Numbered from the stretch's first letter, positions 12,238 to 30,983 are shown. The stretch: 32,382 nt of DNA from an uncultured Verrucomicrobia subdivision 3 bacterium (GCA_903820285.1 CAIJGS010000325.1:1-32382), one strand, 5' to 3'. Notes: a model not told the origin generated them from the sequence alone. A program made the numbers and translations.

Positions 12238-13482
12238 TTATAACGCCGGCGGGAGCGGGTTTCGACGGCCCGGAAGTCGGTCTTTGAGGTTTTGGAGCAG
12301 CGCATGTGCGCGGAATTCCGACGGCGTCATCCCGACGCGTTTCTTGAAAATGCGGCTCAGGTATTCCGCGTGATCCAGTCCGATTTTTTCCGCAATGATC
12401 GGCAGGGAAAAATCGGTCTCAATCAGCAGCTGCTTGGCGCGGTTCAGGCGCACCCGCAAAATTTCATCCTTGGGCGAGCAGTTCATCAGCGTGATAAAAC
12501 GGCGGTCCAGTGTGCTGCGCGACATCGGCACCGCGCGCAGCACGTCGCTGACATCAATGCCTTCGCACGCGTGTTCACGGATGAACCGGGTCACGGCGGC
12601 GATTTGGCGGTCTTCCACCACGAGCACCTCCGTCGAACGCCGGGTCACGACACATTTTGGCAGGATAAAGATTTTTTCGGGTAAGGGCTTTTCGCCCCGC
12701 ATCATGCGCTCGAGCAGGGCGGCTGTTTCGTAACCGATCCGCTCCGTATCCGGCACCACGCTGGAAATGGGCGGATCTGACAAGGAGCAAAGCACTTCAT
12801 CGTTGTCCACACCAATGACGGCCACATCGTCCGGCACATTCACGCAGAGCGCGCGGCAAGTATTCAGGATCTGCTGGCCGCGCACGTCATTGCAGGCCAT
12901 CACGCCCACCGGTTTGGGCAATTGCCTGATCCAGCGCGCAACCGCCGCGTCGTCTTTCAAGCCTTCGATATCATAACCTGCCGTTTTGACTTTGCCGGAC
13001 CGGCCGGCGTTCTTGAAAACATGGCATTGGTAACCGGCGTTGCCGACACTGCGAACGAACCCCTCGAGTCGCTCGTCGGAATAATCAGCCCCGTTGAAAC
13101 CGCAAAAGGCGAAGTGCCGGAAGCCGCGTTCCTTGAAATGTTCAAAGCACATTTCGCCGGATGCGGCGTTGTCGGTCAGGATGGTCGGCATGCCGGCCGT
13201 ATCTTTTACTTTCCGCAAATACACGACCGGCACCCGCAGCCGTTGCACCAAACCGACGATGTTGTTGTTATCCAGCCGGGTAATGATGCCCTCGCCTTTC
13301 CACTTCTTGAACCATGCCGGCGTTTCGTCGCGCAAGCTCAACTCCTGGTAAAAGATGGACCAAGCCTGGTGTTCACGGACATATTTTGCCACGCCGGCCA
13401 TGATGCCGCGGCCGTAAGCGCGTGACGATTCCACGAGCAATGCAACGCGCGGGCGGTTGGCGCTCGTGACAATTTTTTTCAT
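12238..13482 (-). CDS. XylR/AraC-family regulator with LacI-type sugar-sensing domain
   Basis: The chosen start is the Met at 13482 (MKKIVTSANRPRVALLVESS), which matches how XylR-type regulators begin; the ORF-track start at 13518 adds 12 unlikely residues. The 414-residue product has a periplasmic-binding-protein-like sensor (about 12-280: RAYGRGIMAGV, ILTDNAASGEM, GVMACNDVRG, DDVAVIGVDNDE) and a C-terminal AraC-type double helix-turn-helix (about 300-392: VLRAVPMSRSTLDRRF, RLNRAKQLLIET, IAEKIGLDHAEYLSRIFKKRVGMTPSEFR). Members bind a monosaccharide and activate nearby catabolic genes. It lies 51 bp downstream of the alpha-galactosidase gene and upstream of the LamG gene, so it probably controls one or both gene groups. 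Its sugar ligand cannot be read from sequence. Confidence 0.9.
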   Translation of the reverse strand: MKKIVTSANRPRVALLVESSRAYGRGIMAGVAKYVREHQAWSIFYQELSLRDETPAWFKKWKGEGIITRLDNNNIVGLVQRLRVPVVYLRKVKDTAGMPTILTDNAASGEMCFEHFKERGFRHFAFCGFNGADYSDERLEGFVRSVGNAGYQCHVFKNAGRSGKVKTAGYDIEGLKDDAAVARWIRQLPKPVGVMACNDVRGQQILNTCRALCVNVPDDVAVIGVDNDEVLCSLSDPPISSVVPDTERIGYETAALLERMMRGEKPLPEKIFILPKCVVTRRSTEVLVVEDRQIAAVTRFIREHACEGIDVSDVLRAVPMSRSTLDRRFITLMNCSPKDEILRVRLNRAKQLLIETDFSLPIIAEKIGLDHAEYLSRIFKKRVGMTPSEFRAHALLQNLKDRLPGRRNPLPPAL

Positions 13483-13533
13483 GATTCCAAAGTTAAATGA
13501 CGGCCGGCCGCCTGGCAACTGCGTTTGGGAGGC

Positions 13534-15816
13534 TCAAGGAATCCGCAGCCCTTGCCAGTTCACCGGGCGGTTTTGAATTGCGTTGGTGTATTGAAAGTTT
13601 CCGTTTGCATCGAAGGAATTCGTGGCCAGCGCCACCCAGTTCGAAAGCGGAACGGCAAGGTTGCTTGAAGCCACCACTTGATACGTCCAGCCGGAAATTC
13701 CGTTGCTGCCACGCCCAATGAAATTGCCATTCCCATCCCCCGCTGCGCTGGTAAATCTCGGCAATGGGGGTGCGCCGGCCAGATTGAGTTGAAATAATTT
13801 CGCCTGTTTGGCGTTAAGGGAAACCGCGAAGGAGTTCGAAACTGTCATCGTGCTGCCGTCCCATAAATTTGTCGCGATAAAAACCCGGTCGGGCAAAGCG
13901 GCGGCGGCCAGTTTTACCGTGACGTTGGTTGGCGATGCAGTGTAATTGAAGACGGCAATGTTCCAACTTCTGCCATCCTGTCGCACCAAGATGGTTGCCG
14001 CACCCGTACCGGTGGCGCCATCCACGGGTCGGAATGACCGGCCGTTTCGCGCCACCGCGTTAATGGCCGCGTTGGTCAAACAATGTTGCGCCAGGCTGAT
14101 ACTGGCGGCATTGGTGAGAATGCTGCCGTTTAAATATAAACCGGCCACGGCGCAGTTAATCAGCCGGCTTTGGATTTCATTCGGATCGGGGCCGTTGTCA
14201 AAAACCATCAAGTCAGGATCATTAAAAGCATACAAGCGGCCGCCGATCCACCAGCCCAGTGATACGGCATTCATCGTGTAAGCCGTGTTGCCGATGAATG
14301 ACGTCGTCGCATCGCAAGCTATCCGGCGGCTGTGCCCATATTGATAAGGAAAAACCGGGGCGATGGATTCGCTGAGAAACATGCTCCCGCCCAGCTTGCC
14401 TTGGAGATACTGCATTCCCTGGTTGTAGGCCTCGATGCCGGTCGTCACGTTCGTATCATAATGCCTGCCTTCCAGGGCGCCGTGCGACAGGAAATCCAGT
14501 TTCACATAATCAAATCCCCAGTTGGTGAACCAATAACCGTAATAGTCCACCAAGCCGCGGGCGCCGGGGTGGGTGGGGTCGATCGCCAGTGCGCCATCGT
14601 TGGCAATGACGTTGCCGCTCGCGTCGCGCAGCAAAATATCGCTGTACCGGTAGAGTGAAAAATTTGGCGGATTGCCGACCGGCACCCAATTGTTGGTGGC
14701 GTCGGTCACGCTGCCCCAATACACGAACGGCCCAAAGTAAATGCCGGCCTTCTGGCCGTTGTTGTGGCAATGGACGACAAAATTCCGGAGCAGCGTGCCG
14801 CCGCCGTCCGTCCACAGATTGTCCCAATACGAATCCAAATTCACATACGCCGTGCCGCCATTGGTGAAGCCGCGTGACTGCAAGTTCGTATGAATCGAAT
14901 CCGATACGGCGAGGGCGGCGTTGTAACTGATATGGTTCTGATAATTCGTGACGCCCCAGCTGTTCCAGCCAAAGGGCACGCCATTGGTCCAGACCAGCGG
15001 TCCCGTCACGCGCAGATTGGCTTCGGCGAATTTTTCCATTACGATTCGCCAATCATTGCCGTATCCGACAAATATCTGCGGGGATGAAATTGTGCCGCCG
15101 GAAACAAACCCGTGCGGCATCACGTCCCAAGTCCAATAGGATGTCACGCCGCCGAACACGTTCAATTTGTCCAGTTTGGAATTTGAACCCGACCAGTAAA
15201 TGCCGGTCTTCCAAGTGTCATGAGTCACTGAGCCAACCACCAGGCCGGTGCGTGAAACGTTGTCGTAAAAAGCGCCAACCTCATGGCCGACATCCGAGCC
15301 GTTGATGCTTTCCGAGTTGTAACTGACGAAGTGGTCATTGTCGAAAGGCACGAACAGCGCGCGATTGTCATTGGTAACGCCAAGGTTCACTCCGCCGCCC
15401 GCATCCACCACGACTGGCCCCATCCAGTTCGCGCTCGCACCGCTGCCGGTCATTGTGACGCGGGTGAGAAAACTGTCGCTTTCTGCGAGCGTGAAGGTTT
15501 GGGCCATGTCGGGCAGTCCCGCCGCATGAGCGATGACGGTGGCTTGGTTGCTGTTTGCCTGCGACCACGTGCGATTGCTGAAATCGATACCCTTGCAATA
15601 TCCGCTGCGCAATCCGACGCCGCTGTAAAAGGCGGAGATGACCGGCGTATTTTTCCAAAAAAAAGCGGTTGTTCCCGCGTTTAAATCATATTCAAGCCGC
15701 ACGTTGGCGTTTGACATCACCAAGAGATGGCCCGCCTGCCAGAAGGAGGCTGCGTCCGCCCGCGGCCGGAACGCCAATAAAATCAGGCCGGCGGTGATGC
15801 CGCTTTTGACACGCAT
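13534..15816 (-). CDS. clan GH-D alpha-galactosidase (GH36/GH27-like), secreted
   Basis: The ORF track starts at 16056, but the first 80 codons look non-coding and a signal peptide begins at M81 (MRVKSGITAGLILLAFRPRADA), so the start is set at 15816, giving 760 residues. After an N-terminal beta-domain comes a barrel with GWNSWG (283-288), VNLDSYWDN (325-333), GIYFGPFVYWG (358-368), DYVKLDFLSHG (436-446; D441 nucleophile), RIACDA (498-503; D502 acid/base) and FNDPDLMVF (531-539). These are hallmarks of clan GH-D melibiase-type enzymes, which release alpha-linked galactose. A C-terminal beta-domain is followed by a ~75-residue module (687-760) like that ending the LamG protein. It is the most upstream gene of the locus. 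Galactosidase is the best guess; an alpha-N-acetylgalactosaminidase-like activity is possible. Confidence 0.85.
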   Translation of the reverse strand: MRVKSGITAGLILLAFRPRADAASFWQAGHLLVMSNANVRLEYDLNAGTTAFFWKNTPVISAFYSGVGLRSGYCKGIDFSNRTWSQANSNQATVIAHAAGLPDMAQTFTLAESDSFLTRVTMTGSGASANWMGPVVVDAGGGVNLGVTNDNRALFVPFDNDHFVSYNSESINGSDVGHEVGAFYDNVSRTGLVVGSVTHDTWKTGIYWSGSNSKLDKLNVFGGVTSYWTWDVMPHGFVSGGTISSPQIFVGYGNDWRIVMEKFAEANLRVTGPLVWTNGVPFGWNSWGVTNYQNHISYNAALAVSDSIHTNLQSRGFTNGGTAYVNLDSYWDNLWTDGGGTLLRNFVVHCHNNGQKAGIYFGPFVYWGSVTDATNNWVPVGNPPNFSLYRYSDILLRDASGNVIANDGALAIDPTHPGARGLVDYYGYWFTNWGFDYVKLDFLSHGALEGRHYDTNVTTGIEAYNQGMQYLQGKLGGSMFLSESIAPVFPYQYGHSRRIACDATTSFIGNTAYTMNAVSLGWWIGGRLYAFNDPDLMVFDNGPDPNEIQSRLINCAVAGLYLNGSILTNAASISLAQHCLTNAAINAVARNGRSFRPVDGATGTGAATILVRQDGRSWNIAVFNYTASPTNVTVKLAAAALPDRVFIATNLWDGSTMTVSNSFAVSLNAKQAKLFQLNLAGAPPLPRFTSAAGDGNGNFIGRGSNGISGWTYQVVASSNLAVPLSNWVALATNSFDANGNFQYTNAIQNRPVNWQGLRIP

Positions 15817-16338
15817 TTTTAGTTTTTCACACAGTGGGATACTTCCTGGCTGATGGTGTAATGGGGAGCGATAGTTCCGCAACGACTTTTTCCAGCCGCA
15901 ACCGCCAGGGGCGCACCCCGCCAATGCCTCCTGACAGGTGGCATCAGGCTGCCGGACTATGCCAATCATCGGCGGGACCGCGGCTGAGTCAGCCGCAGAA
16001 GAGCGCGTACGCCTGATCGAACGGGGCTGCTTCGGAGTGCTGGAAGAATGCGGCACGAACGAATCACACCGGCTGAGATTGAGCGCCCCTTGAAGGCGAC
16101 GACGGGAGGTGTAGCGGTGACGGTCGCCAATTTGGCGAGGGGCATCGGACTGATCCTTGTTTTAGTTGGAACCCAAATTGTTGGAAGCACCGAGAATCAG
16201 AGCCAAATTTGCAGGTCCAAATACATGACATCGTTGACACGTTTACACACGGTCCGCCGGGTTGAAATCCGTTGAGCCGTTGTTAGTTTTGTTGTTAGCT
16301 TTTTGGAGAAATCCGCTTAAGCAGATGATTAAAAGGGA
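15817..16338. other. intergenic stretch between alpha-galactosidase gene and tRNA-Val
   Basis: This 522-bp gap holds the upstream region of the alpha-galactosidase gene and the island end next to the tRNA 3' terminus. ORFs across it show no recognisable protein. Notable pieces are the inverted repeat at 15925-15943 and two direct copies of GTTGTTAG (16279-16286 and 16291-16298). No clear sigma70 promoter for the alpha-galactosidase gene was found. Confidence 0.5.
15925..15943 (-). promoter_or_regulatory. candidate operator: 19-bp inverted repeat upstream of alpha-galactosidase gene
   Basis: TGCCTCCT and AGGTGGCA flank a 3-nt centre with one mismatch between the arms. The site lies about 110 bp upstream of the start at 15816. 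Its size suits a dimeric regulator such as the XylR-type protein encoded next door, but the same sequence was not found at the LamG promoter, so the link is unproven. Confidence 0.3.
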
Positions 16339-17802: not shown

Positions 17803-17831
17803 TTGACATAATGGTATTAGCAATGTATGGT
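17803..17831 (+). promoter_or_regulatory. sigma70 promoter of first choice-of-anchor-A gene
   Basis: Consensus TTGACA (17803-17808), a 17-bp spacer and TATGGT (17826-17831). The spacer contains TAATGGTATTA, an inverted repeat with 4-bp arms. The start codon lies about 50 bp downstream. Confidence 0.65.
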
Positions 17832-17861
17832 GCGGGATAAGTTGGTATTGTCGTCCGAAAT

Positions 17862-17880
17862 TTCAGAGCGAGTTAAACCC
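17862..17880 (+). repeat. leader motif shared by the two anchor-A genes, copy 1
   Basis: TTCAGAGCGAGTTAAACCC ends directly at the ATG at 17881. A close copy, TTCAGAGCGGTTAAAGCC, lies at 19014-19031, eight bases before the ATG of the paralog. It may be a remnant of the duplication or a shared 5'-UTR element. Confidence 0.5.
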
Positions 17881-18843
17881 ATGAAAATTGAAAGTAAATT
17901 GATTGTCTGTCTGTCGGCCGTGGCGGTTTCCCAAATCAGCCTCAAGGCTGATGATGTGAATGCCCTGTTGTCGAACTGGAATGTTGTCACCGTCAACAAC
18001 GCCCAGATCAATAATGAATATGAAGGCCGCGCCTTTGTCGGCGGCAATCTGACAGCTGACAATCAGGCGGCCATCGGTCATTCCCTGTCGTCCACCAACA
18101 TATCCCTTGCGGTGGTGGGCAACATCACGGCCAACAACTACATCAACGTCCAAAACGGCAGTGTGGATGTGGGGGGCACCAGCTCGGCCCATTTCAATAT
18201 GAATGGCGGCGGTACGGTGAGCTTGGGCAGCCCGGTTCCGGCGGCCATTTCACCGGTCAGTGTGCTGACCACCAGTTCGTTATACTGGTCTACCTTGGCG
18301 GCCAACAGCACAATTACCACCAACAACGCCAACCAGATCAATTTCAATACCGTGGCCAATGGATCCGGCCTGGCGATTTTAAATGTGACTGGTGCGCAAA
18401 CGTTTAACGCCGGTTTGAATGGCTTTAATTTGAACCTGGGCGCCGGGGTCACGACGGTACTGGTCAATATCAACGCCGGCAGCATCAACTGGAACGCCGG
18501 CAGCTTCTTTGGCAATTTCCAGACGGATTTCGGCCGGGGCAACGTCTTGTTCAATTTTTATAATGCCACCAACGTCTATCTGGGTAACCAGTTTGAAGGC
18601 TATATAGTGGCTCCCAATGCCAATGTCACGCTGGGCAACAATGTGGATGGCGGGGTAATGGTCAGCAACTTGGTGGCGGACAGTGAGATCCATCTGCCGG
18701 ACCGCAATTCCAGTGCCTCTTCCTTTTACGGTACGCTTCCCAATGTGGTTACGCCCGGGCCGGTGCCTGAGCCGGCCACCTTGGCGTTGCTGCCGGTGGG
18801 AGCCCTACTGTGGGCCGCCCGCCGCCGATTTGCCAAAAGCTGA
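17881..18843 (+). CDS. choice-of-anchor A family PEP-CTERM protein (paralog 1)
   Basis: The ORF track begins at 17827, inside the promoter, so the Met at 17881 is the better start; it opens a signal peptide (MKIESKLIVCLSAVAVSQISLKA). The 320-residue product carries the choice-of-anchor-A pattern: NWNVVTVNNAQI, EGRAFVGGNLTA, SLAVVGNI, ALNVTGAQTF-like strand, GYIVAPNANVTLGNN and GGVMVSNL. It ends with PGPVPEPATLALLPVGALLWA and RRRFAKS, a PEP-CTERM sorting signal. Such domains occur on surface proteins with many different anchors and are thought to be adhesive or matrix-forming, though no precise function is known. It is a tandem paralog of the protein encoded at 19040-19993, sharing ISLKAD at the signal cleavage region and the same C-terminal anchor. 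Confidence 0.9.
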   Translation: MKIESKLIVCLSAVAVSQISLKADDVNALLSNWNVVTVNNAQINNEYEGRAFVGGNLTADNQAAIGHSLSSTNISLAVVGNITANNYINVQNGSVDVGGTSSAHFNMNGGGTVSLGSPVPAAISPVSVLTTSSLYWSTLAANSTITTNNANQINFNTVANGSGLAILNVTGAQTFNAGLNGFNLNLGAGVTTVLVNINAGSINWNAGSFFGNFQTDFGRGNVLFNFYNATNVYLGNQFEGYIVAPNANVTLGNNVDGGVMVSNLVADSEIHLPDRNSSASSFYGTLPNVVTPGPVPEPATLALLPVGALLWAARRRFAKS

Positions 18844-19039: not shown

Positions 19040-19993
19040 ATGAAAATGAATCGGTTGATTGCTTGTGGTTTGCTGGTTTCGCCGGTCTCGGCCATTAGCC
19101 TCAAGGCGGATGTAAACAGCAGTATGGCCAATTGGAATGTCATCACTGCTGGTGACGCCTATTTGAATGACCCCGTGGGAGGGCGCATTTTTGTCGGTGG
19201 CAATCTTAACTACGGCAATCAGGTGGCAACGGTCGAAAGCTCGGTGGCCGCCACCAATATTACCTTGGCGGTGGTTGGCAATATCAATTCCTGGGCTAAC
19301 ATTCAGCATGGCAGCGTGGTGGCTGGTGGTACCAGTCAGTATCTCGCTTTGAACGGCGGCACCCTCACCACGGGCAGTCCGGTTCCCTCCTCCATTTCGC
19401 CGGTCACCAGTCTGATCAACAATTCACTCTACTGGTCCACCCTCACGCCCAATAGCACGGTCGCTTACGGTTCCGGTTCAGCCACTTTCAATACCACCGC
19501 CGGTTCGTCCGTAGCGGTATTTGATGTCACGGGTGCCCAAACCTTCAACGCCAACCTCTGGAACGGCATTGGCTTAAATCTGGCGGCGGGCGTCAATACG
19601 GTGATTGTGAATGTGAATGCCACCACGATCAATGGTGGGTACACACCTTTTCTGAGTTCTTTCCAGAATGCCTTTGGTTCCGGCAATGTGGTGTTCAATT
19701 TCTATAATGCCACGAGTATTGATATTGGCGCCGAAGTTTATGGCTACATTGTGGCTCCCAATGCCACGGTCAACCTGCACAGCGGGGTGCAAGGTGGCAT
19801 CATGGCCAACAGCATCAATAATATCGGTGGCGTGGGCATAACCCCGCCCGTCGGTTCCACCGGCCCTTCTTGGAACGGTTCCTTGCCCGATGTGGCGGTT
19901 CCCGGACCCGTGCCTGAGCCGGCTTCCCTCGCGTTGCTCCCGGTCGGAGCGGCCGCTCTCTGGTTCTTCCGCCGCCGCACGGTCAGAGATTGA
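19040..19993 (+). CDS. choice-of-anchor A family PEP-CTERM protein (paralog 2)
   Basis: This 317-residue paralog has a signal peptide (MKMNRLIACGLLVSPVSAISLKA); M3 is an alternative start. It shows the same domain pattern as its neighbour: NWNVITAGDAYL, GGRIFVGGNLNYGNQ, LAVVGNI, FDVTGAQTFNANL, NVVFNFYNAT, GYIVAPNATVNLHSGVQGGIM. It ends with VPGPVPEPASLALLPVGAAALW and FRRRTVRD, a PEP-CTERM sorting signal. Similarity runs over the full length, showing a tandem duplication followed by divergence. Each copy has its own promoter and terminator, so the two can be expressed separately. A surface or matrix role is inferred from the sorting signal only. Confidence 0.9.
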   Translation: MKMNRLIACGLLVSPVSAISLKADVNSSMANWNVITAGDAYLNDPVGGRIFVGGNLNYGNQVATVESSVAATNITLAVVGNINSWANIQHGSVVAGGTSQYLALNGGTLTTGSPVPSSISPVTSLINNSLYWSTLTPNSTVAYGSGSATFNTTAGSSVAVFDVTGAQTFNANLWNGIGLNLAAGVNTVIVNVNATTINGGYTPFLSSFQNAFGSGNVVFNFYNATSIDIGAEVYGYIVAPNATVNLHSGVQGGIMANSINNIGGVGITPPVGSTGPSWNGSLPDVAVPGPVPEPASLALLPVGAAALWFFRRRTVRD

Positions 19994-22655: not shown

Positions 22656-25600
22656 TCACGAGGCGGTGCTTTGCGTGGCCGCCAACAGCGTCCACACGCG
22701 TAATGCTTCGGTTACGCCCCAAGCCTGGGCATCGCAACCTCGTTGCGTGTGCGGGGCATCGCCATCCAGCAGTTCAGGGATCTGGCCGAGGCAGCCTTGG
22801 TTCAGGACGCCGGTCACGCTGCCGAGATAGCTTTGCGCGGCGGCCACGGCAGCCGGCGAAAAATCCCACGCCCGCGCGAGGGCTTCACAGAAGACAGGGA
22901 ACGTCCACGTCCACGCCGTGCCATTGTGATAGGCGGGTTTGCGCCGCGTATCCTCATCGCCTTCGTAGCGCGGCCAATAGGGTTCCAGTGGATTGTTCAG
23001 CAGCCGGCCATCGCGCCAGATGGGCAGGGGCGTCGTGACAGGCAGGGGGGCGAGCGAGCGCAGTCCGCCCGGCACAACCAAATATTTCTGCGCGGCCTGC
23101 ACGCAGCGTTGGGCGCGTTCGCTGGTGACCAGACCGAGACTGACGGCAAAGAGGCAGTTGCTGCGCAGGGCGTCACTGGGCGTGGCATCGCGGGCAATCA
23201 CCCGCGCCTTGGCCAGCAGCACGTCGGCGAACCAGCCCTGGTCGGGGAGCCATAATAATTTTTCACACGACTCCATCGCCCGGGCGGCGCGGTCGCCCCA
23301 GCGCTTCTGGTTCGCCTTGGGACTGATCTTTTCCAGCAACCGCAGCAGCCGTATCCAGAGCACCTGGATTTCCACCGGATAGCCTTCCCGTGGCGTGCCG
23401 GCCGGGTAGTTCGTGTCCATCCACGTGAAATGGCTGGGGCTCCAGATGAGCAGCGAATCAGCATCGGCGGCAATGTCGTTCGGGGTGCCCTTGAGATAAT
23501 TTTCCGCAATGCTGGTGAGTACGTCCCGGATGGTGCGGCCCGCGTCATTCACCGGCGTGTCAAAAAACGTTTTTCCCCTGGCTTTCGGCTTGGCGGCCAC
23601 ATCGGAAAATTCCTCGCACACCACGGCAAACCACAGCGGCGCGTCCGAGGTGTCGCGATTGGACACATCATTGCCGTGAATGGTGTTGGGCAGCGTGCCA
23701 TCCTTTTCAAACTTCGCAAAGGTCAGCAGCAGCTGTTTTAATTCCGCCGTCATGCCGGCGGCCAGCAGCCCGCGCGCACAGATGAGCGAGTCGCGGCCCC
23801 AATCCAAAAACCACGGATAACCGGCAATGACCGTCTTGCCATCATCCCGCCGGACCACATACTGCCGCGCCGCCTGGGTGAGGTCCATCAGCAGCGAGGG
23901 TGCCACGGCTTTTTTGCGGGATTGCACCGGGGCCAATTTGGTTGCGTTTTCGGCTGTCGCCACCAGGGTAACACCGGTTTTTTCGGTTACCGGCAGTTCA
24001 AACCAGCCGGGGCTGTAGGCATCGCCGCTCCCGGTCTGGCCGCGCGTTTGTTCAACGGGATGCGGGATGTTTTCGCACCATTCCGCCTCGGGATGATATT
24101 TGCCCGCATCGGCAAAGATACGGAGCTGACGGTCTACCGCCGGGGTAAATTTGAAGCCCGGCATGGCGGCATCCGTCAGTGGATGCACATTCGAGGAGAA
24201 ATGATAATCCGCGCCGCCGTTGCGCTTGGTCTCTGAATGAAAATTCCGGTCTTCAATGTCGAAGCGCACCGTCAGGCTCACGTCCGCCGTGGCGGACAGG
24301 GCGCGGCCGATGGCGGGTTCGCCCGCGAGACGTTTAAAGCGCAACACCGTGGTGTTCTGTTCCGGCAGCATTTCCACCGACAGCTGGAGGGACACAATCC
24401 GCCCGTCACCGGCACTGGCGGTAAAAGTCCAGACCGCCGGCGGACCGGCCGTAAAACCGGCGAGATTTTTAAAGTCCAACGCCGAAATAAAACCGTCTGC
24501 ATTCACCCAGGCGCGCAGGCGTTTGATGAACACATGGCGGTCCACCGGCACGGTGGGATTCAGATTGGCCCCAAGCACGCAATCGTACTTTGAATTCACG
24601 CGGCCCAAGTCCACGCACAGTCTGGCCATGCCGCCAATGCCGTTGGTCAGCAACACCAGGTCCGCCGGCTTCGGGCGCGGCGTAGTGAGCGACGGCTCTG
24701 GCGCGAGGAAGCGGACGGTGCCTGTGACCGTTGGCTGGCTGGTGGCGTGCCGCTCCAGCTGGAGCCCGGCATCCGCAGCGACTTTGCGCGGCGGGAAACA
24801 GGCGATATGGCCGGTGCCGGCGGCGATGGATTGCACGTGCCGCGCCGCTTGGTCATCGCCTGCGGATGTGATTTGCAGGGTGGCGCGAAACGGCACCGTG
24901 TCCCGGACCAGCAACCAGTGATCCGCCGGTATCGGCGTAATCCGGCGAATATCCGCCAACGTCCACTCAACCACGCGCGGAAAAATGTCCCCGCTGGCCG
25001 CCTGCTCCAGCAAAGCCGCAAACGATCCCTTGTCTGCCGTACCCGCCCGGGCGGCGAACTCGCTGGCGGCGGATAAAAAATCCACCGGCGACCGCTCGAT
25101 TTGGCTGGCCAGCCAGCACCAGTCGGCCATATCCGTGGCTTCGGCCGCGATAATCTCATTGAGCGATTCCAATGCCCACGCCGCTTGTGCGCGGCCACGG
25201 CGGTAAAGATCGCCGCTTAAACCGGCCGGCCGGGCGGTGGGCGCCAGGCAATAGGCCGCTCCCGGCGGCAGCGTGAAGGTGGTGATGTTCCCGCTTTCTG
25301 AGCGGCCGGGCAGCGGCTGGCCGAGCAGTTCAAATTGAAAGGTGCCCGGCGGCTGCCGGAGGGCAAACACATCCAGCGTGAGTATTTGCGCTTTTTCGGG
25401 TTCGGTGTTTATGAGCACCAGCACACTGTCCAGGTCTTCCGCCGATTCGCGCAACAGGGCGTAAACTGGCGCGTCCGGCGGGCTCAAACGGGTCAGTCGG
25501 GCTCCGTCAAAAAAACAGGGATGATCGGAAATCAGCCGGTTCAGCGCCGCCAGTTCGGGCACAATATTATCCGGGCTGTCCCAGTTCAAACCGGTGTTGC

Positions 25601-27008
25601 CGTGCACGCGGATCTTTTCCGTGGCGAGCCATTCCACGCCGCACGTAAAGCCAAATCCACCCACCGGGCTGGTGAGGCCACAAAGACGGTTGCGCAACAG
25701 TGACCAGACACGTCCGCGCTTGGCCAGGCGGTCGTTATCGTGCGTCTCGGAATAATGGACGTAACTGCCCACACGTTCGTTCTGGCGGTTCGCGTAGTCC
25801 AGATACCAGGAAACTTCGTGGCCGGAATAGTTCTGAAACAGTTCCGAGTAAGCCCACTGCATGCCACCCTCGGTTAACAGGAGTTCAGTGGCGTCCCACG
25901 AGCCGCCCAGTCCTTCGAGCAGAAAAATGGCGGAGGAAAACTCATCCTGCACGCGGGCGATGATGTATTGCCACGCGGTGGCCGGAATCTTATAACCGGC
26001 ATCGCAGCGGAACCCATCCACCCCGCGCCGGCACCACGTGAGCAGCGAATCCGCAATGATGTCCCACAATTTTACCTCATCCTGTTCCAATTCCACCAAA
26101 TCCTCCCAGACGGTTCCCCACGCCCCGGGACTGGCAAATTCGCCATCCTGTTTTTTGAGGAAGAATTCCGGGTGATTTTCCTGCAAGGTCGAACCCCAGC
26201 CGGTGTGGTTGATGACAATATCAATGAAGATGCGTGCCCCGAGCGCGTGCGCGGCGCGGGTCAGTTCGCAAAACTGGTCGATGCCGGTCGTGCGCTTGTC
26301 AAACTCCACCAGCGCCGGGTCCACCGCGGTGAGATCCAGCGCGGCATACGGGCTGCCGAAGCGGCCAAAGCGTCCATAAGTAACCGGCGTGGGATGCACC
26401 GGCAGCAGATGGATGATGCGGCAGCCGAGCCGGGTGACGATGTGCGGCAACTGCCGGGCGAGATCGCGGAAGGTGCCCGAGGGCGGCAGCGTGGCGTAGC
26501 CCTGCGCCTCCAGGGATTTGAGCTGGGTCTCCAGCGCGGGCTCGGCGGTGCTGGCCAGGTTTTTGGTGGCACCGAACAGCCGGATAAACGCGCAGTAAAT
26601 CGTATTGGCCGTGCGGGCAAAATCAGGGTGCACGCAAATGCCCACGTCCGGACCGGCGGGCCAGTGCTGCCAGCCATTTTCGTCCAGCAGATAGGCTTTG
26701 GCTCTGAAATACCCGGCCTCGGCCAGGGGCAGTTCGATTTGCCAGCCGGTGTCGGTGCGCTGCATCGGCACATCGCGCCAGGAAGCCCCGTGCGCAGCGC
26801 TGCCGCCCGCATGGGCGCAGATAATTTCATGGCGGCTGGCAGCCGCGCGGCCGATGGTGGTGCGCAGCCGGGCGCGCCAGGTCTTGGGGGCGGTGGAAAA
26901 CTGCGCGTGCCGCAGAGTGAAAACAATTTTGTCGCCCACGAAACGCAACCGGCGCTCGCCGGGAGCCGGGGTCATCAAAGGGTTGGAGCCTGAAGCATTG
27001 CCATCCAT
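22656..27008 (-). CDS. bifunctional GH13-GH133 glycogen debranching enzyme-like protein
   Basis: This is one continuous 1450-residue frame. After an N-terminal beta-domain (about 20-130) comes a GH13 barrel with region I DIVINH (263-268), region II GFRCDAGY (D336, nucleophile), region III FLLEGLGG (E365) and region IV ETHDND (H423, D424), so all catalytic residues are present. Linker beta-domains follow. The last ~370 residues are an amylo-alpha-1,6-glucosidase domain of the GDE_C/GH133 type (YPWFLDWGRDSLICARGL, TLPNTIHGNDVSNRDTSDAPLWF, YHNGTAWTWTFPVF). The order GH13 then GH133 at about 1500 residues is that of the eukaryotic debranching enzyme AGL, which transfers a short glucan and then cuts the 1,6-branch. 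No signal peptide is seen, so a cytoplasmic role in glycogen breakdown is likely. Confidence 0.85.
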   Translation of the reverse strand: MDGNASGSNPLMTPAPGERRLRFVGDKIVFTLRHAQFSTAPKTWRARLRTTIGRAAASRHEIICAHAGGSAAHGASWRDVPMQRTDTGWQIELPLAEAGYFRAKAYLLDENGWQHWPAGPDVGICVHPDFARTANTIYCAFIRLFGATKNLASTAEPALETQLKSLEAQGYATLPPSGTFRDLARQLPHIVTRLGCRIIHLLPVHPTPVTYGRFGRFGSPYAALDLTAVDPALVEFDKRTTGIDQFCELTRAAHALGARIFIDIVINHTGWGSTLQENHPEFFLKKQDGEFASPGAWGTVWEDLVELEQDEVKLWDIIADSLLTWCRRGVDGFRCDAGYKIPATAWQYIIARVQDEFSSAIFLLEGLGGSWDATELLLTEGGMQWAYSELFQNYSGHEVSWYLDYANRQNERVGSYVHYSETHDNDRLAKRGRVWSLLRNRLCGLTSPVGGFGFTCGVEWLATEKIRVHGNTGLNWDSPDNIVPELAALNRLISDHPCFFDGARLTRLSPPDAPVYALLRESAEDLDSVLVLINTEPEKAQILTLDVFALRQPPGTFQFELLGQPLPGRSESGNITTFTLPPGAAYCLAPTARPAGLSGDLYRRGRAQAAWALESLNEIIAAEATDMADWCWLASQIERSPVDFLSAASEFAARAGTADKGSFAALLEQAASGDIFPRVVEWTLADIRRITPIPADHWLLVRDTVPFRATLQITSAGDDQAARHVQSIAAGTGHIACFPPRKVAADAGLQLERHATSQPTVTGTVRFLAPEPSLTTPRPKPADLVLLTNGIGGMARLCVDLGRVNSKYDCVLGANLNPTVPVDRHVFIKRLRAWVNADGFISALDFKNLAGFTAGPPAVWTFTASAGDGRIVSLQLSVEMLPEQNTTVLRFKRLAGEPAIGRALSATADVSLTVRFDIEDRNFHSETKRNGGADYHFSSNVHPLTDAAMPGFKFTPAVDRQLRIFADAGKYHPEAEWCENIPHPVEQTRGQTGSGDAYSPGWFELPVTEKTGVTLVATAENATKLAPVQSRKKAVAPSLLMDLTQAARQYVVRRDDGKTVIAGYPWFLDWGRDSLICARGLLAAGMTAELKQLLLTFAKFEKDGTLPNTIHGNDVSNRDTSDAPLWFAVVCEEFSDVAAKPKARGKTFFDTPVNDAGRTIRDVLTSIAENYLKGTPNDIAADADSLLIWSPSHFTWMDTNYPAGTPREGYPVEIQVLWIRLLRLLEKISPKANQKRWGDRAARAMESCEKLLWLPDQGWFADVLLAKARVIARDATPSDALRSNCLFAVSLGLVTSERAQRCVQAAQKYLVVPGGLRSLAPLPVTTPLPIWRDGRLLNNPLEPYWPRYEGDEDTRRKPAYHNGTAWTWTFPVFCEALARAWDFSPAAVAAAQSYLGSVTGVLNQGCLGQIPELLDGDAPHTQRGCDAQAWGVTEALRVWTLLAATQSTAS

Positions 27009-27072: not shown

Positions 27073-28080
27073 TCAAAAACTTCCCGCCGACCGGTTAACC
27101 AGCCAGGGCGGCAGGGAGGGATGGCGTGAATTGTTTACCACCGGCTTGTCATTGGGCGAAGCGAAGAGGCTGGGCAGAGGCTTCGGCCGGCCGATATTAT
27201 CCTTGAGCGGGGCATAGCCAAGACCCAGCGAATTGCCCGAAGCCGACGCACTGGCAGTCCCCGGACTCGCATAGAGGCCGGCGGTCTGACTGCCCGCATT
27301 CAACTGCTTGGGTGGCGCAGGATTGGGCGGCGAGAGAATTTGCCGGAACCGTTCCATTTCCGCCGTCTGGGCCGGATCGGGTTTGTTGTTGTAGCTGCTA
27401 TATGTCTCCGTGGGCGGGCTCCAAGAACTGGCCCACAGTGATCGGGGCGCCTGCTGGGGTTGCTTATTGAAGGTGGCCTCTTCCACCGCCGGATTGTCAA
27501 AAGTATGAACCTTGGAAAAACTGCTTTGCGAGCTGCGGAAAAACGAGCTGGCATCCTTGATCTGCGAATCCAGATTATTGTCCTCACGCCAGTTGCCGCC
27601 AAACAGGGAGGCGTGATCCGCCGCCGCATTGGTATTGATCCGCGACACTTCCAGCCGTTTGATGAAACGCTGCTCGGCAGTGAGGTTTTGATCCGGATCA
27701 TCCTGGCCCTTTTTACTGTTATCCTCCACGCCCAGGATTTCTTCCGGGGTCAGCAGCATCCAGTTTTTCTGGAGATCTTCCTGATGCTTCTGCCGTTGCA
27801 AATCGGCCTGAGTCCTTTGCTGCAAAGCTGCCGGATCAATCAGCGGGGTCGGATCGGCGGGCTGACTGAAGAGCACGGGGGGCGCGGAATATTGATCTAC
27901 GAATTTTTTCCGGTCATACGACTGCTGCCGGGCCGGCAGATACAGAACCGGATTAAGATGCACCGGTGCATAAGACGGCTCGCTGCTCGGGGAATTCGAC
28001 GGCTGGGCCACGGCACCAACACACCCTGCCAGCAGCGTGACTGCCAGCCATCCTGACATATTGGGTGAAAACCGTCTCAT
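27073..28080 (-). CDS. proline/glutamine-rich lipoprotein of unknown function
   Basis: The 335-residue protein starts MRRFSPNMSGWLAVTLLAGC, which has a basic start, a hydrophobic stretch and an LAGC lipobox ending at Cys20, so it is probably a lipoprotein. The Met at 28059 (M8) keeps the lipobox and is an alternative start. The rest is low-complexity and rich in Pro, Gln, Ser and Asn, with a short helical segment (about 85-150: LQQRTQADLQRQKHQEDLQKNW). It has no recognisable enzymatic domain and looks largely disordered. It lies 64 bp upstream of the debranching-enzyme gene and may share its transcript, although no functional link is evident. I do not recognise the family. Confidence 0.7.
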   Translation of the reverse strand: MRRFSPNMSGWLAVTLLAGCVGAVAQPSNSPSSEPSYAPVHLNPVLYLPARQQSYDRKKFVDQYSAPPVLFSQPADPTPLIDPAALQQRTQADLQRQKHQEDLQKNWMLLTPEEILGVEDNSKKGQDDPDQNLTAEQRFIKRLEVSRINTNAAADHASLFGGNWREDNNLDSQIKDASSFFRSSQSSFSKVHTFDNPAVEEATFNKQPQQAPRSLWASSWSPPTETYSSYNNKPDPAQTAEMERFRQILSPPNPAPPKQLNAGSQTAGLYASPGTASASASGNSLGLGYAPLKDNIGRPKPLPSLFASPNDKPVVNNSRHPSLPPWLVNRSAGSF

Positions 28081-28466: not shown

Positions 28467-29246
28467 TTATTTCTTCAAAAACGCGCTGAAGAGGTCAATC
28501 GGCAGCGGCAGGAACGTAGTGGTGTTGTGTTCGCTGGCCATTTCCCGCATGGTCTGCAAATAGCGCAACTGGAGCGCGATCGGTTCCTTGGCGATCATCG
28601 CCGCCGCCTGCACCATCTTCTCGGCGGCCTGAAATTCGCCCTCAGCGTTCACCACCTTGGCGCGACGTTCGCGTTCGGCTTCAGCCTGCTTGGCCATCGC
28701 GCGCTTCATGCTGTCCGGCAGGGCCACATCCTTGATTTCCACCGTGGTCACCTTGATGCCCCACGGCTCCGTCTGACGGTCGATGATTTCCTGGAGCTTC
28801 TGGTTGATCGTATCGCGTTGCGAAAGCAGGTCATCCAGCGAGGCCTGACCCAGCACGCTCCGCAGTGTCGTCTGCGCGATCAGCGAGGTGGCTTTCCAGT
28901 AATTCTCCACCTTCACTATTGCGTCCGCCGGGTTGATCACCCGGAAATATACCACCGCGTCCACCGTGGCCGGCACGTTGTCTTTGGTCATGATCTCCTG
29001 TTTGGAAACGTCAATCGTCACCACCCGCAGCGAAATCCGTTCCATACGGTCCACGCCGGGAATCAGCAGGATCAATCCGGGGCCCTTCGCGCCCACCAGA
29101 TTGCCGAAGCGGAAGATCACGCCGCGCTCGTATTCGCGCAGAATGCGCACAGCTTGGGGCGCGATGAAGAGCAGGGCTAAAATGCCGACCACCACGAACG
29201 GCGTGCTGGCCCCCATGAATTTGGTCAGGGCGGTGATGATTTCCAT
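28467..29246 (-). CDS. slipin (SPFH/stomatin-like membrane protein)
   Basis: The 259-residue protein has one N-terminal membrane helix (about 15-30, [16 protein letters not shown]). An SPFH domain follows, with [14 protein letters not shown] (37-50), [21 protein letters not shown] (54-74) and [16 protein letters not shown] charged coiled-coil segment comes next ([20 protein letters not shown]), then a C-terminal [10 protein letters not shown] motif. This is the prokaryotic stomatin pattern. Slipins oligomerise in membrane microdomains and are often encoded beside NfeD proteins, whose protease domain can cut stomatin C-termini in archaea. Here it follows the NfeD gene by 12 bp, so the two are almost certainly one operon and one functional unit. 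Confidence 0.95.
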
Positions 29247-29258
29247 ATGCTTTAGGTT

Positions 29259-30521
29259 CTAATGTTTCGGTTTCACCTGCAAGGTCAGTCCCGTCAGGCC
29301 GGTAATTTCCACGGACTGGCCCGCGGCCACCGTTACCGGGCTGACCGCATTCCACGTTTCTCCTCCGATAAACACCTTGCCGCCCGCCGAGTCAATCCCG
29401 GAAATCGCCTGCGCCACCTGGCCCAGCATCGCCTCCCGACCCGACCGCGCCGGGGCGAACTGCGCGCGCAGCCCCTTCGCCACAATGAAAATGAAGAACA
29501 ACGAAGTCACACCCGTCGCCGCCACGATCCACGACAGCGGCAGCACCAAGGCCGATCCCGTATCGCGGAACAGCAGCAGCAATCCCAGGAAAAACGCAAT
29601 AATGCCCCCGCCCGTCAGAATTCCATGTGTGGGCGCAAACACATCTACAATGAACAGGGCCACCGCCAGCCCCACCAGCACCATGCCCGTGAGATTCAGC
29701 GGTAAAATGGCGTACATATACAGCAGCAACACCAGCGCAATCGCCCCCGCCACGCCCGGCAAAATCGCGCCCGGGTTGCTCATCTCGCCAATGACACCGT
29801 AAATCGCAATCAACATGAGCAGCAGCATGATTTCCGGCCGCCACAACAGTTGAAACAGCTTCTCGCCGGCCACCTGCGGGATTTCCGCCACCGTCGCGTG
29901 CGCTGTGTTGAGGGTCCGGCCGTTGACCGTGCGGCCATCCAGTTGCCCGAGCAGATCGGGAATATTGGTGGCGATCAGATCAATCACGTTATTCGTCAGC
30001 GCGGCTTCGGCCGTGGCCGCCTGGCTTTGCCGCACGGCGGATTCCGCCCACTCCCCATTGCGCCGCCGCTTGTCCGTGATGTTCTTCATCAGTTGCGTGG
30101 CGTCATTCTCCATCTTCTCCTTCATCACATCGCTCACCCCGCCGCCATTGGCATCCACCGGATGCGCCGCGCCCAGCCGCGAATGCGGCGCCATCGCCGC
30201 CACGTCCGCCGCCAGGGTGATGAACGTGCCCGCGCTGTCCGCGCCCGCGCCCTCCGGCGCGACATATACCACCACGGGAATTTTGGCCGCGAAAAAACCT
30301 TCAACAATCTGTTTGGTGGAATCCATCAGCCCGCCGGGAGTATCGAGTTGGAGAATGAGACACTCATCGTTTTGCGCCGTGGCCGTCTCCAGCGCACGGG
30401 CAATATAAGTCGCCGTGGCCGGTCCGATGGCCCCGTCCACGCGGATCAACCCCACCTGACCCGCCGGTGCCGAAACGCCGGTGAGCAGCCCGAGCACCGC
30501 CATGAACCAAAACCGCCACAT
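29259..30521 (-). CDS. NfeD-family membrane serine protease (ClpP-like domain plus NfeD domain)
   Basis: The Met at 30521 opens a signal sequence (MWRFWFMAVLGLLTGVSAPA); the track start at 30719 adds 66 unlikely residues, and the Met at 30593 is an alternative. The product is 420 residues. The ClpP-like protease domain (about 22-235) has LQLDTPGG (58-64), ADSAGTFIT with the putative nucleophile S96, and ITDKRRRNGEWA with the putative base K151, a Ser-Lys dyad. Four to six membrane helices follow (about 245-370), then a C-terminal OB-fold NfeD domain (GKVFIGGETWNAVS). The residue before the serine is Asp where many family members have a small residue. It probably processes slipin or other membrane proteins. 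It overlaps no neighbour and precedes slipin by 12 bp. Confidence 0.92.
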   Translation of the reverse strand: MWRFWFMAVLGLLTGVSAPAGQVGLIRVDGAIGPATATYIARALETATAQNDECLILQLDTPGGLMDSTKQIVEGFFAAKIPVVVYVAPEGAGADSAGTFITLAADVAAMAPHSRLGAAHPVDANGGGVSDVMKEKMENDATQLMKNITDKRRRNGEWAESAVRQSQAATAEAALTNNVIDLIATNIPDLLGQLDGRTVNGRTLNTAHATVAEIPQVAGEKLFQLLWRPEIMLLLMLIAIYGVIGEMSNPGAILPGVAGAIALVLLLYMYAILPLNLTGMVLVGLAVALFIVDVFAPTHGILTGGGIIAFFLGLLLLFRDTGSALVLPLSWIVAATGVTSLFFIFIVAKGLRAQFAPARSGREAMLGQVAQAISGIDSAGGKVFIGGETWNAVSPVTVAAGQSVEITGLTGLTLQVKPKH

Positions 30522-30983
30522 AAGAAAACTACTGCTACCATGGCAACCTAACAGACCGGCCGCCCAGCGCAAATGAAACTTATGCTTACCCATGGGAGTC
30601 TCAGCCAACTTGGAAATCCATGTTGGACGATGGCAAACCCATTTTGCTAGGGTCAAATTATGTTTGGACGCGACCATGAAAAATATGTGTCTGAAAAAGA
30701 AGTTCGCGATGATGTGCACGATAATTTGTGGTTTTCGGGCAGTCTGGTAGTTTTATTGGATGTTTAATGTTGGTCGGATTTTTTTGATTCCCTTCATCTT
30801 GAATTTGCTGGAATTGATTAAATTGCGACGAAACGATAGAAAAAATAAATGACGGATCAACTTTACGAGTCACCCAACTCAGCCAGCCCGACCAGAAAAC
30901 CTATTTGGCGGTTGCTGTAAAGAGCTTGGCGATGGTGCCGGGTTTACTCTATACGCCATGCCCCGCGGCAAGCGCACCCCATC
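30522..30983. other. AT-rich intergenic region between divergent genes
   Basis: These 462 bp separate the nfeD start (minus) from the frameshifted membrane-protein gene (plus). The middle, 30650-30850, is clearly AT-rich compared with its surroundings. The ORF at 30658-30873 has no recognisable product. No RNA gene was recognised. Confidence 0.5.
30926..30954 (+). promoter_or_regulatory. weak promoter candidate for the gene at 30984
   Basis: TTGGCG (30926-30931), a 17-bp spacer and CTATAC (30949-30954) lie 30 bp before the ATG. The -10 matches the consensus only partly. Confidence 0.3.

Follow-up and report, generated by a model that had tools for sequence, protein, structure and literature searches.

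The gene described here lies in a window of 32,382 nucleotides, the whole stretch of DNA analysed (GCA_903820285.1 CAIJGS010000325.1:1-32382), from an uncultured Verrucomicrobia subdivision 3 bacterium. It encodes in one chain a glycoside hydrolase family 13 (GH13) domain followed by a family 133 (GH133) domain, the layout of eukaryotic glycogen debranching enzyme (GDE; human AGL). The fusion was an old, conserved family with intact catalytic residues in both halves, linked to glycogen genes in Kiritimatiella-type genomes. Its product is read, with a probability of roughly 0.6, as a cytosolic bifunctional glycogen debrancher, which would have arisen in bacteria by fusion of a GH13_48/GlgE-like enzyme with a prokaryotic GDE_N–GDE_C amylo-1,6-glucosidase, independently of AGL. 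The fusion resembles AGL in its layout and probably also in its action, but is probably not of AGL descent.

The fused protein and its two halves

The fusion gene was a single uninterrupted minus-strand open reading frame (ORF), running from an ATG at 27008 to a stop codon at 22656, in agreement with the 1450-residue frame claimed by the first-pass annotation, which had not given the strand. The claimed order of GH13 then GH133 and a total size like that of AGL were also found (1450 against 1532 amino acids in human AGL). An assembly artefact was ruled out by full-length homologues in hundreds of genomes, single-contig ones included (G072, G098, G528). No signal peptide was seen at the N-terminus of the fusion protein, which is thus probably intracellular.

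The Alpha-amylase Pfam match covered residues 178-341 of the window protein (27.4 bits; cut-off 22), and GDE_N (PF12439; 90 bits) and GDE_C (PF06202; 219 bits) were both over their cut-offs, as they were in 48/48 relatives. A connecting module between the halves had no Pfam match in the window protein or in the relatives scanned. The predicted local distance difference test score was 88.6 for the AlphaFold2 model of residues 1-790 and 92.4 for the model of the second half. Six catalytic or sugar-binding acids (D336, E365, D424, D1073, D1198 and E1412) were invariant in 68/68 full-length relatives, and likewise in a smaller set (32/32); the first three bear out the earlier claim of intact GH13 catalytic residues. 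D1198 aligned directly with Asp1241 of Candida GDE, and E1412 aligned with the Glu of LPEL in human AGL and would be the counterpart of Candida Glu1492. Asp1241 and Glu1492 are the demonstrated GH133 catalytic pair of Candida GDE (PMC4837477).

By its domain composition, the GH133 half is of the prokaryotic GDE_N–GDE_C type. Human and Candida GDE were the only strong sequence relatives of its profile among solved structures (1.5e-16), and the fold matches of the second-half model were GH94-type phosphorylases and Candida GDE. The gde_arch model (TIGR01561) gave 128.2 bits, under its cut-off of 364.15. The C-terminal 670 residues of the fusion share both domains and the catalytic residues with gde_arch and related prokaryotic proteins, whose described layout is GDE_N–GDE_C alone (PMC4236520); the known ones stand alone, whereas the fused GH133 domains formed a separate clade. 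Such unfused proteins are common in prokaryotes (PMC4236520), and were omitted from the otherwise fair statement of the first-pass annotation that most bacteria use a GlgX/TreX-type debrancher. The GlgX/TreX (GH13_11) model TIGR02100 gave the fusion 20.3 bits, under the cut-off of 640.9.

The GH13 profile matched 3dhu best among solved structures (2.2e-43), 4gkl next (2.7e-29) and then GlgE, with no AGL chain among the best 60 matches; 3dhu and 4gkl have been placed in or next to GH13_48 (PMC11239784). In the fold search with the model of residues 1-790, GlgE ranked first, 4gkl and 3dhu had the highest target-normalised template modelling score (0.79-0.80), and no AGL chain occurred in the top 50. 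Scores with the fused-GH13 profile were 142 bits for 3dhu, 125 for an Azospirillum GlgE-like protein, 124 for the window genome's own amylase, 111 and 75 for GlgE and 98 for 4gkl, as against 23.5 for Candida GDE, 10.5 for GlgB, 10.2 for GlgX and 8.7 for human AGL (transferase region from the sequence of solved chain 8zeq). The Azospirillum protein (L184; about 1100 amino acids) is plasmid-encoded in Azospirillum sp. B510 and annotated as 'maltotransferase domain-containing'. The GH13 tree grouped the fused GH13 domains with GlgE-like sequences (97/98).

The Cys directly preceding the nucleophile in conserved sequence region (CSR) II, a GH13_48 feature (PMC11239784), was present in the fusion (GFRCD; C335 invariant). 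The L-[DN] that ends CSR-V in GH13_48 was absent (VELE aligned with KDLD of 3dhu), as was the GQ that ends CSR-VII (NGVEW aligned with NGQEF of 3dhu; G457 and E459 invariant). Traits of GH13_49 were absent too, Leu364 and not Asp standing before the general acid E365 in CSR-III, and CSR-II ending in Y-K, not [WY]-[GA]. Because the Cys was present but the CSR-V and CSR-VII traits were absent, the most fitting label for the GH13 half is that of a relative, as yet unassigned, of GH13_48 and GlgE. Among its matches by sequence, the GH13_48 amylases are the best; they share the Cys, and differ in those two traits and in lacking the N-terminal domain and GH133 that the fusion adds. The maltosyltransferase GlgE (GH13_3) shares a beta-sandwich N-terminal to the barrel, but is only about 16% identical and has no GH133.

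Proposed activity and relation to AGL

In the proposed debranching, glycogen phosphorylase would trim the outer chains to short stubs, and the GH13 site would cleave the alpha-1,4 bond preceding the branch. The short malto-oligosaccharide would then most likely be transferred to the end of a different chain, its release being less likely, and the GH133 site would hydrolyse the remaining single alpha-1,6-linked glucose. Both activities, transfer over hydrolysis and this order of steps are predicted.

The fusion gene adjoined glgA and a glgB-type gene in 5/5 Kiritimatiella-type genomes examined, and the alpha-glucan phosphorylase gene glgP too in 2/5 (family searches on two of the five; the other three matched via near-identical start sequences). 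The window's genome had glgA, glgP and glgB, no GlgX over cut-off, and the fusion as its sole GDE_C protein. Over 73 genomes, phosphorylase was present in 41/41 fusion bearers, GlgX was over cut-off in 2/41 fusion genomes vs 7/32 others, and MalQ/GH77 was present in 7/41 vs 26/32 (Fisher p = 6e-8). Absence of GlgX and MalQ would be expected if no free maltodextrins were released.

Several results weigh against this debrancher. The GlgX and MalQ contrast lay between clades and was not seen inside the window's own order, in which fusion-less and fusion genomes had GlgX in 0/5 vs 2/22 and MalQ in 1/5 vs 6/22. The window's genome keeps an amylomaltase (GH77) whose sequence is divided between two contigs, and the neighbours of the fusion in the window were not glycogen genes. 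Moreover, the closest characterised relatives of the GH13 half, 3dhu and 4gkl, are GH13_48-group maltogenic amylases (PMC11239784), hence the GH13 half may hydrolyse. A maltogenic-type hydrolase in place of a transferase, with the fused protein turning branched dextrins into small sugars and glucose, is the alternative that survives best, although it is judged unlikely: GlgE, which is almost equally near, is a transferase, and fusion bearers mostly lack MalQ, a recycler of short maltodextrins, a contrast held at clade level only.

The AGL architecture claimed by the first-pass annotation stood as layout and not as demonstrable kinship. Like AGL/GDE (GH13_25–GH133, an 'indirect debranching enzyme'), the fusion had GH13 before GH133 in one chain of similar length and all catalytic acids of both sites. 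Unlike AGL/GDE, its GH13 was not detectably GH13_25 and its domain B was much shorter. The AGL equivalog model TIGR01531 gave 26.7 bits (cut-off 1399.55), and the AGL-specific Pfam domains hGDE_N and hGDE_central were not found in the window protein or in the relatives scanned, which had the prokaryotic GDE_N instead; AGL has hGDE_N and hGDE_central and no GDE_N (PMC4236520).

Descent of AGL and the bacterial fusion from one GH13–GH133 fusion, passed for example from a bacterium of the Planctomycetes-Verrucomicrobia-Chlamydiae group to an early eukaryote and strongly diverged in AGL, is improbable in view of this reversed domain content and of the scores of both halves. The AGL transferase (8.7-23.5 bits) was near GlgB and GlgX and far under GH13_48 and GlgE, and the AGL GH133 domain was nearer to the unfused bacterial GH133 profile (142 bits) than to the fused type (78 bits). 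Common descent would explain the identical domain order and similar size, and would suit the weak hDGE_amylase (PF14701) matches in 43/48 relatives. The scores with this model were 20.5-22.1 bits, below its cut-off of 27 (window protein 20.5). As a sign of an AGL-like transferase these matches were dropped, because the unfused amylase of the window's genome scored higher (29.5 vs 20.5). The trees also leave room for common descent: a grouping of fused GH133 with AGL was not rejected by the approximately unbiased (AU) test (p-AU = 0.416), and the AGL transferase stood beside the fused clade in the GH13 tree with support of 39/2, that is, none.

Between the origin of the eukaryotic enzyme and a convergent fusion, both named by the first-pass annotation, the GH13 half (nearest GH13_48/GlgE, with AGL at about GlgB/GlgX level) spoke for convergence, and kinship was unrejected by the trees. 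Profile scores of the GH13 and GH133 halves and the PF14701 pattern together favour two separate fusions. Profile scores measure similarity and not descent, and the trees leave the placement of AGL unsettled; a convergent fusion independent of AGL is the likeliest reading, favoured by the scores and unproved by the trees.

A GlgE-like maltosyl or oligosyl transferase acting on a sugar phosphate, with GH133 trimming the product in a synthetic and not a degradative role, would fit the first rank of GlgE in the fold search (N-terminal beta-sandwich included) and the GlgE-like grouping in the GH13 tree, but is very improbable given the low identity to GlgE, the presence of GlgA in the window's genome, and Ala after the nucleophile where GlgE has Asn (FRVDN).

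Distribution and history of the bacterial fusion

Matches to the fusion were found in 132/146 genomes of the window's order and were strong (E < 1e-170) in 125/146. In the phylum sample, the remainder of the window's own class had weak or unfused matches only, and most genomes of other classes had the fusion at full length and about 40-46% identity. The scan across named taxa gave at least 576 relatives. Among the matches listed, fusion bearers were Verrucomicrobia subdivision 3/Limisphaerales, Kiritimatiellae, Lentisphaerae, Holophagaceae (Acidobacteriota; including Geothrix), Desulfobacterales and one genome of Planctomycetota BB1. Many bearers were metagenome bins, with taxon labels that may be wrong; Holophagaceae and Desulfobacterales were each seen several times.

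The fused GH133 domains formed one clade (100/100) together with one unfused member (L072), and the fused GH13 domains formed one clade as well (100/99). Identity between fused and unfused GH133 domains was at most 31%, except for the same unfused member (35%). Both trees alike grouped Limisphaerales with Holophagaceae, and Desulfobacterales with Kiritimatiellae and Lentisphaerae. One clade per half and matching taxon groupings suggest a single old fusion followed by transfers; the fused gene has likely moved from phylum to phylum since then, and has likely lost its GH13 part at least once. An unfused GH133 protein of genome G380 fell in or beside the fused clade, and a clade of fused sequences only had p-AU = 0.045 (AU tests run on a 19-row tree), which makes domain loss somewhat likelier than an ancestral unfused state.

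The gene for that unfused fusion-type protein (L093, 8597-13449) overlaps a GH63/MGH1-like gene. It was rejected as a split precursor of the fusion, the neighbouring gene product being GH63-like and not GH13. A GH133 gene of Azospirillum (L180) stands immediately before a gene annotated 'glucosidase'.

No paper reporting the bacterial GH13–GH133 fusion was found in the literature searched, which had limited coverage of subscription journals and CAZy tables. The 2024 review PMC11046441 treats archaeal GH133 and, in the part seen, mentions no bacterial fusion. Counts of 'GH133' in the first literature matches were often 'GH13_38' without the underscore, and PMC11239784 is not about the fusion.

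The odds appear even that several bacterial phyla own an indirect (transfer-then-hydrolyse) debrancher through a separate GH13–GH133 fusion on a different GH13 branch. If they do, indirect debranching does not divide eukaryotes from bacteria, contrary to the published view; the same solution would have evolved twice, and a bacterial comparator would be at hand for the human enzyme whose defect underlies glycogen storage disease III. The fusion itself is common in Verrucomicrobiota-related groups, and further bearers are Acidobacteriota, Desulfobacterales and one genome of Planctomycetota.

Features and neighbouring genes

Table 1. Location of the fusion gene, its domains and its catalytic residues in the window (TIM, triosephosphate isomerase).
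Feature	Position	Strand	Basis
GH13–GDE_N–GDE_C (GH133) fusion gene	22656..27008	-	ORF and Pfam; 1450 amino acids
N-terminal beta-sandwich domain, residues about 11-130	26619..26978	-	AlphaFold2 model; whole-half fold match to GlgE
GH13 TIM-barrel with short domain B, residues about 135-500	25509..26606	-	Pfam, profile, AlphaFold2 model and fold match
GH13 catalytic nucleophile D336 (GFRCD)	26001..26003	-	Invariant 68/68
GH13 general acid/base E365 (LLEGL)	25914..25916	-	Invariant 68/68
GH13 transition-state stabiliser D424 (ETHDN)	25737..25739	-	Invariant 68/68
GH13 C-terminal beta domain, residues about 504-590	25239..25499	-	Strands in model
Connecting module (helices at 599-671, beta strands at 679-767)	24708..25214	-	Models; no Pfam family
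GDE_N (PF12439), N-terminal domain of prokaryotic type in GH133 proteins, residues 785-1012	23973..24656	-	Pfam
GDE_C / GH133 (alpha/alpha)6 domain, residues 1046-1437	22698..23873	-	Pfam and model
GH133 general acid D1198 (TWMD)	23415..23417	-	Aligned with Candida GDE Asp1241
GH133 general base E1412 (GQIPE), probably equivalent to Candida GDE Glu1492	22773..22775	-	Alignment with human AGL LPEL

Upstream of the fusion gene, on the minus strand, were genes for an SPFH/Band 7 protein and its NfeD1b membrane protease partner (28467-29246 and 29259-30719), and between these and the fusion gene was one (27073-28080) for a protein of low complexity whose N-terminus is signal-like. Two adjacent choice-of-anchor A/ice-binding-like adhesin genes, each with a PEP-CTERM sorting signal, were on the plus strand (17827-18843 and 19040-19993). 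An 840-amino-acid ORF with a GTG start on the minus strand (13534-16056) had no Pfam or NCBIfam family, and adjoined a gene for a XylR-type regulator (12238-13518). Besides the normal GlgB, the window's genome encoded elsewhere (L095, 7872-9968) a CBM48–GH13 protein that resembles a branching enzyme and, having a signal-like N-terminus, is apparently secreted.

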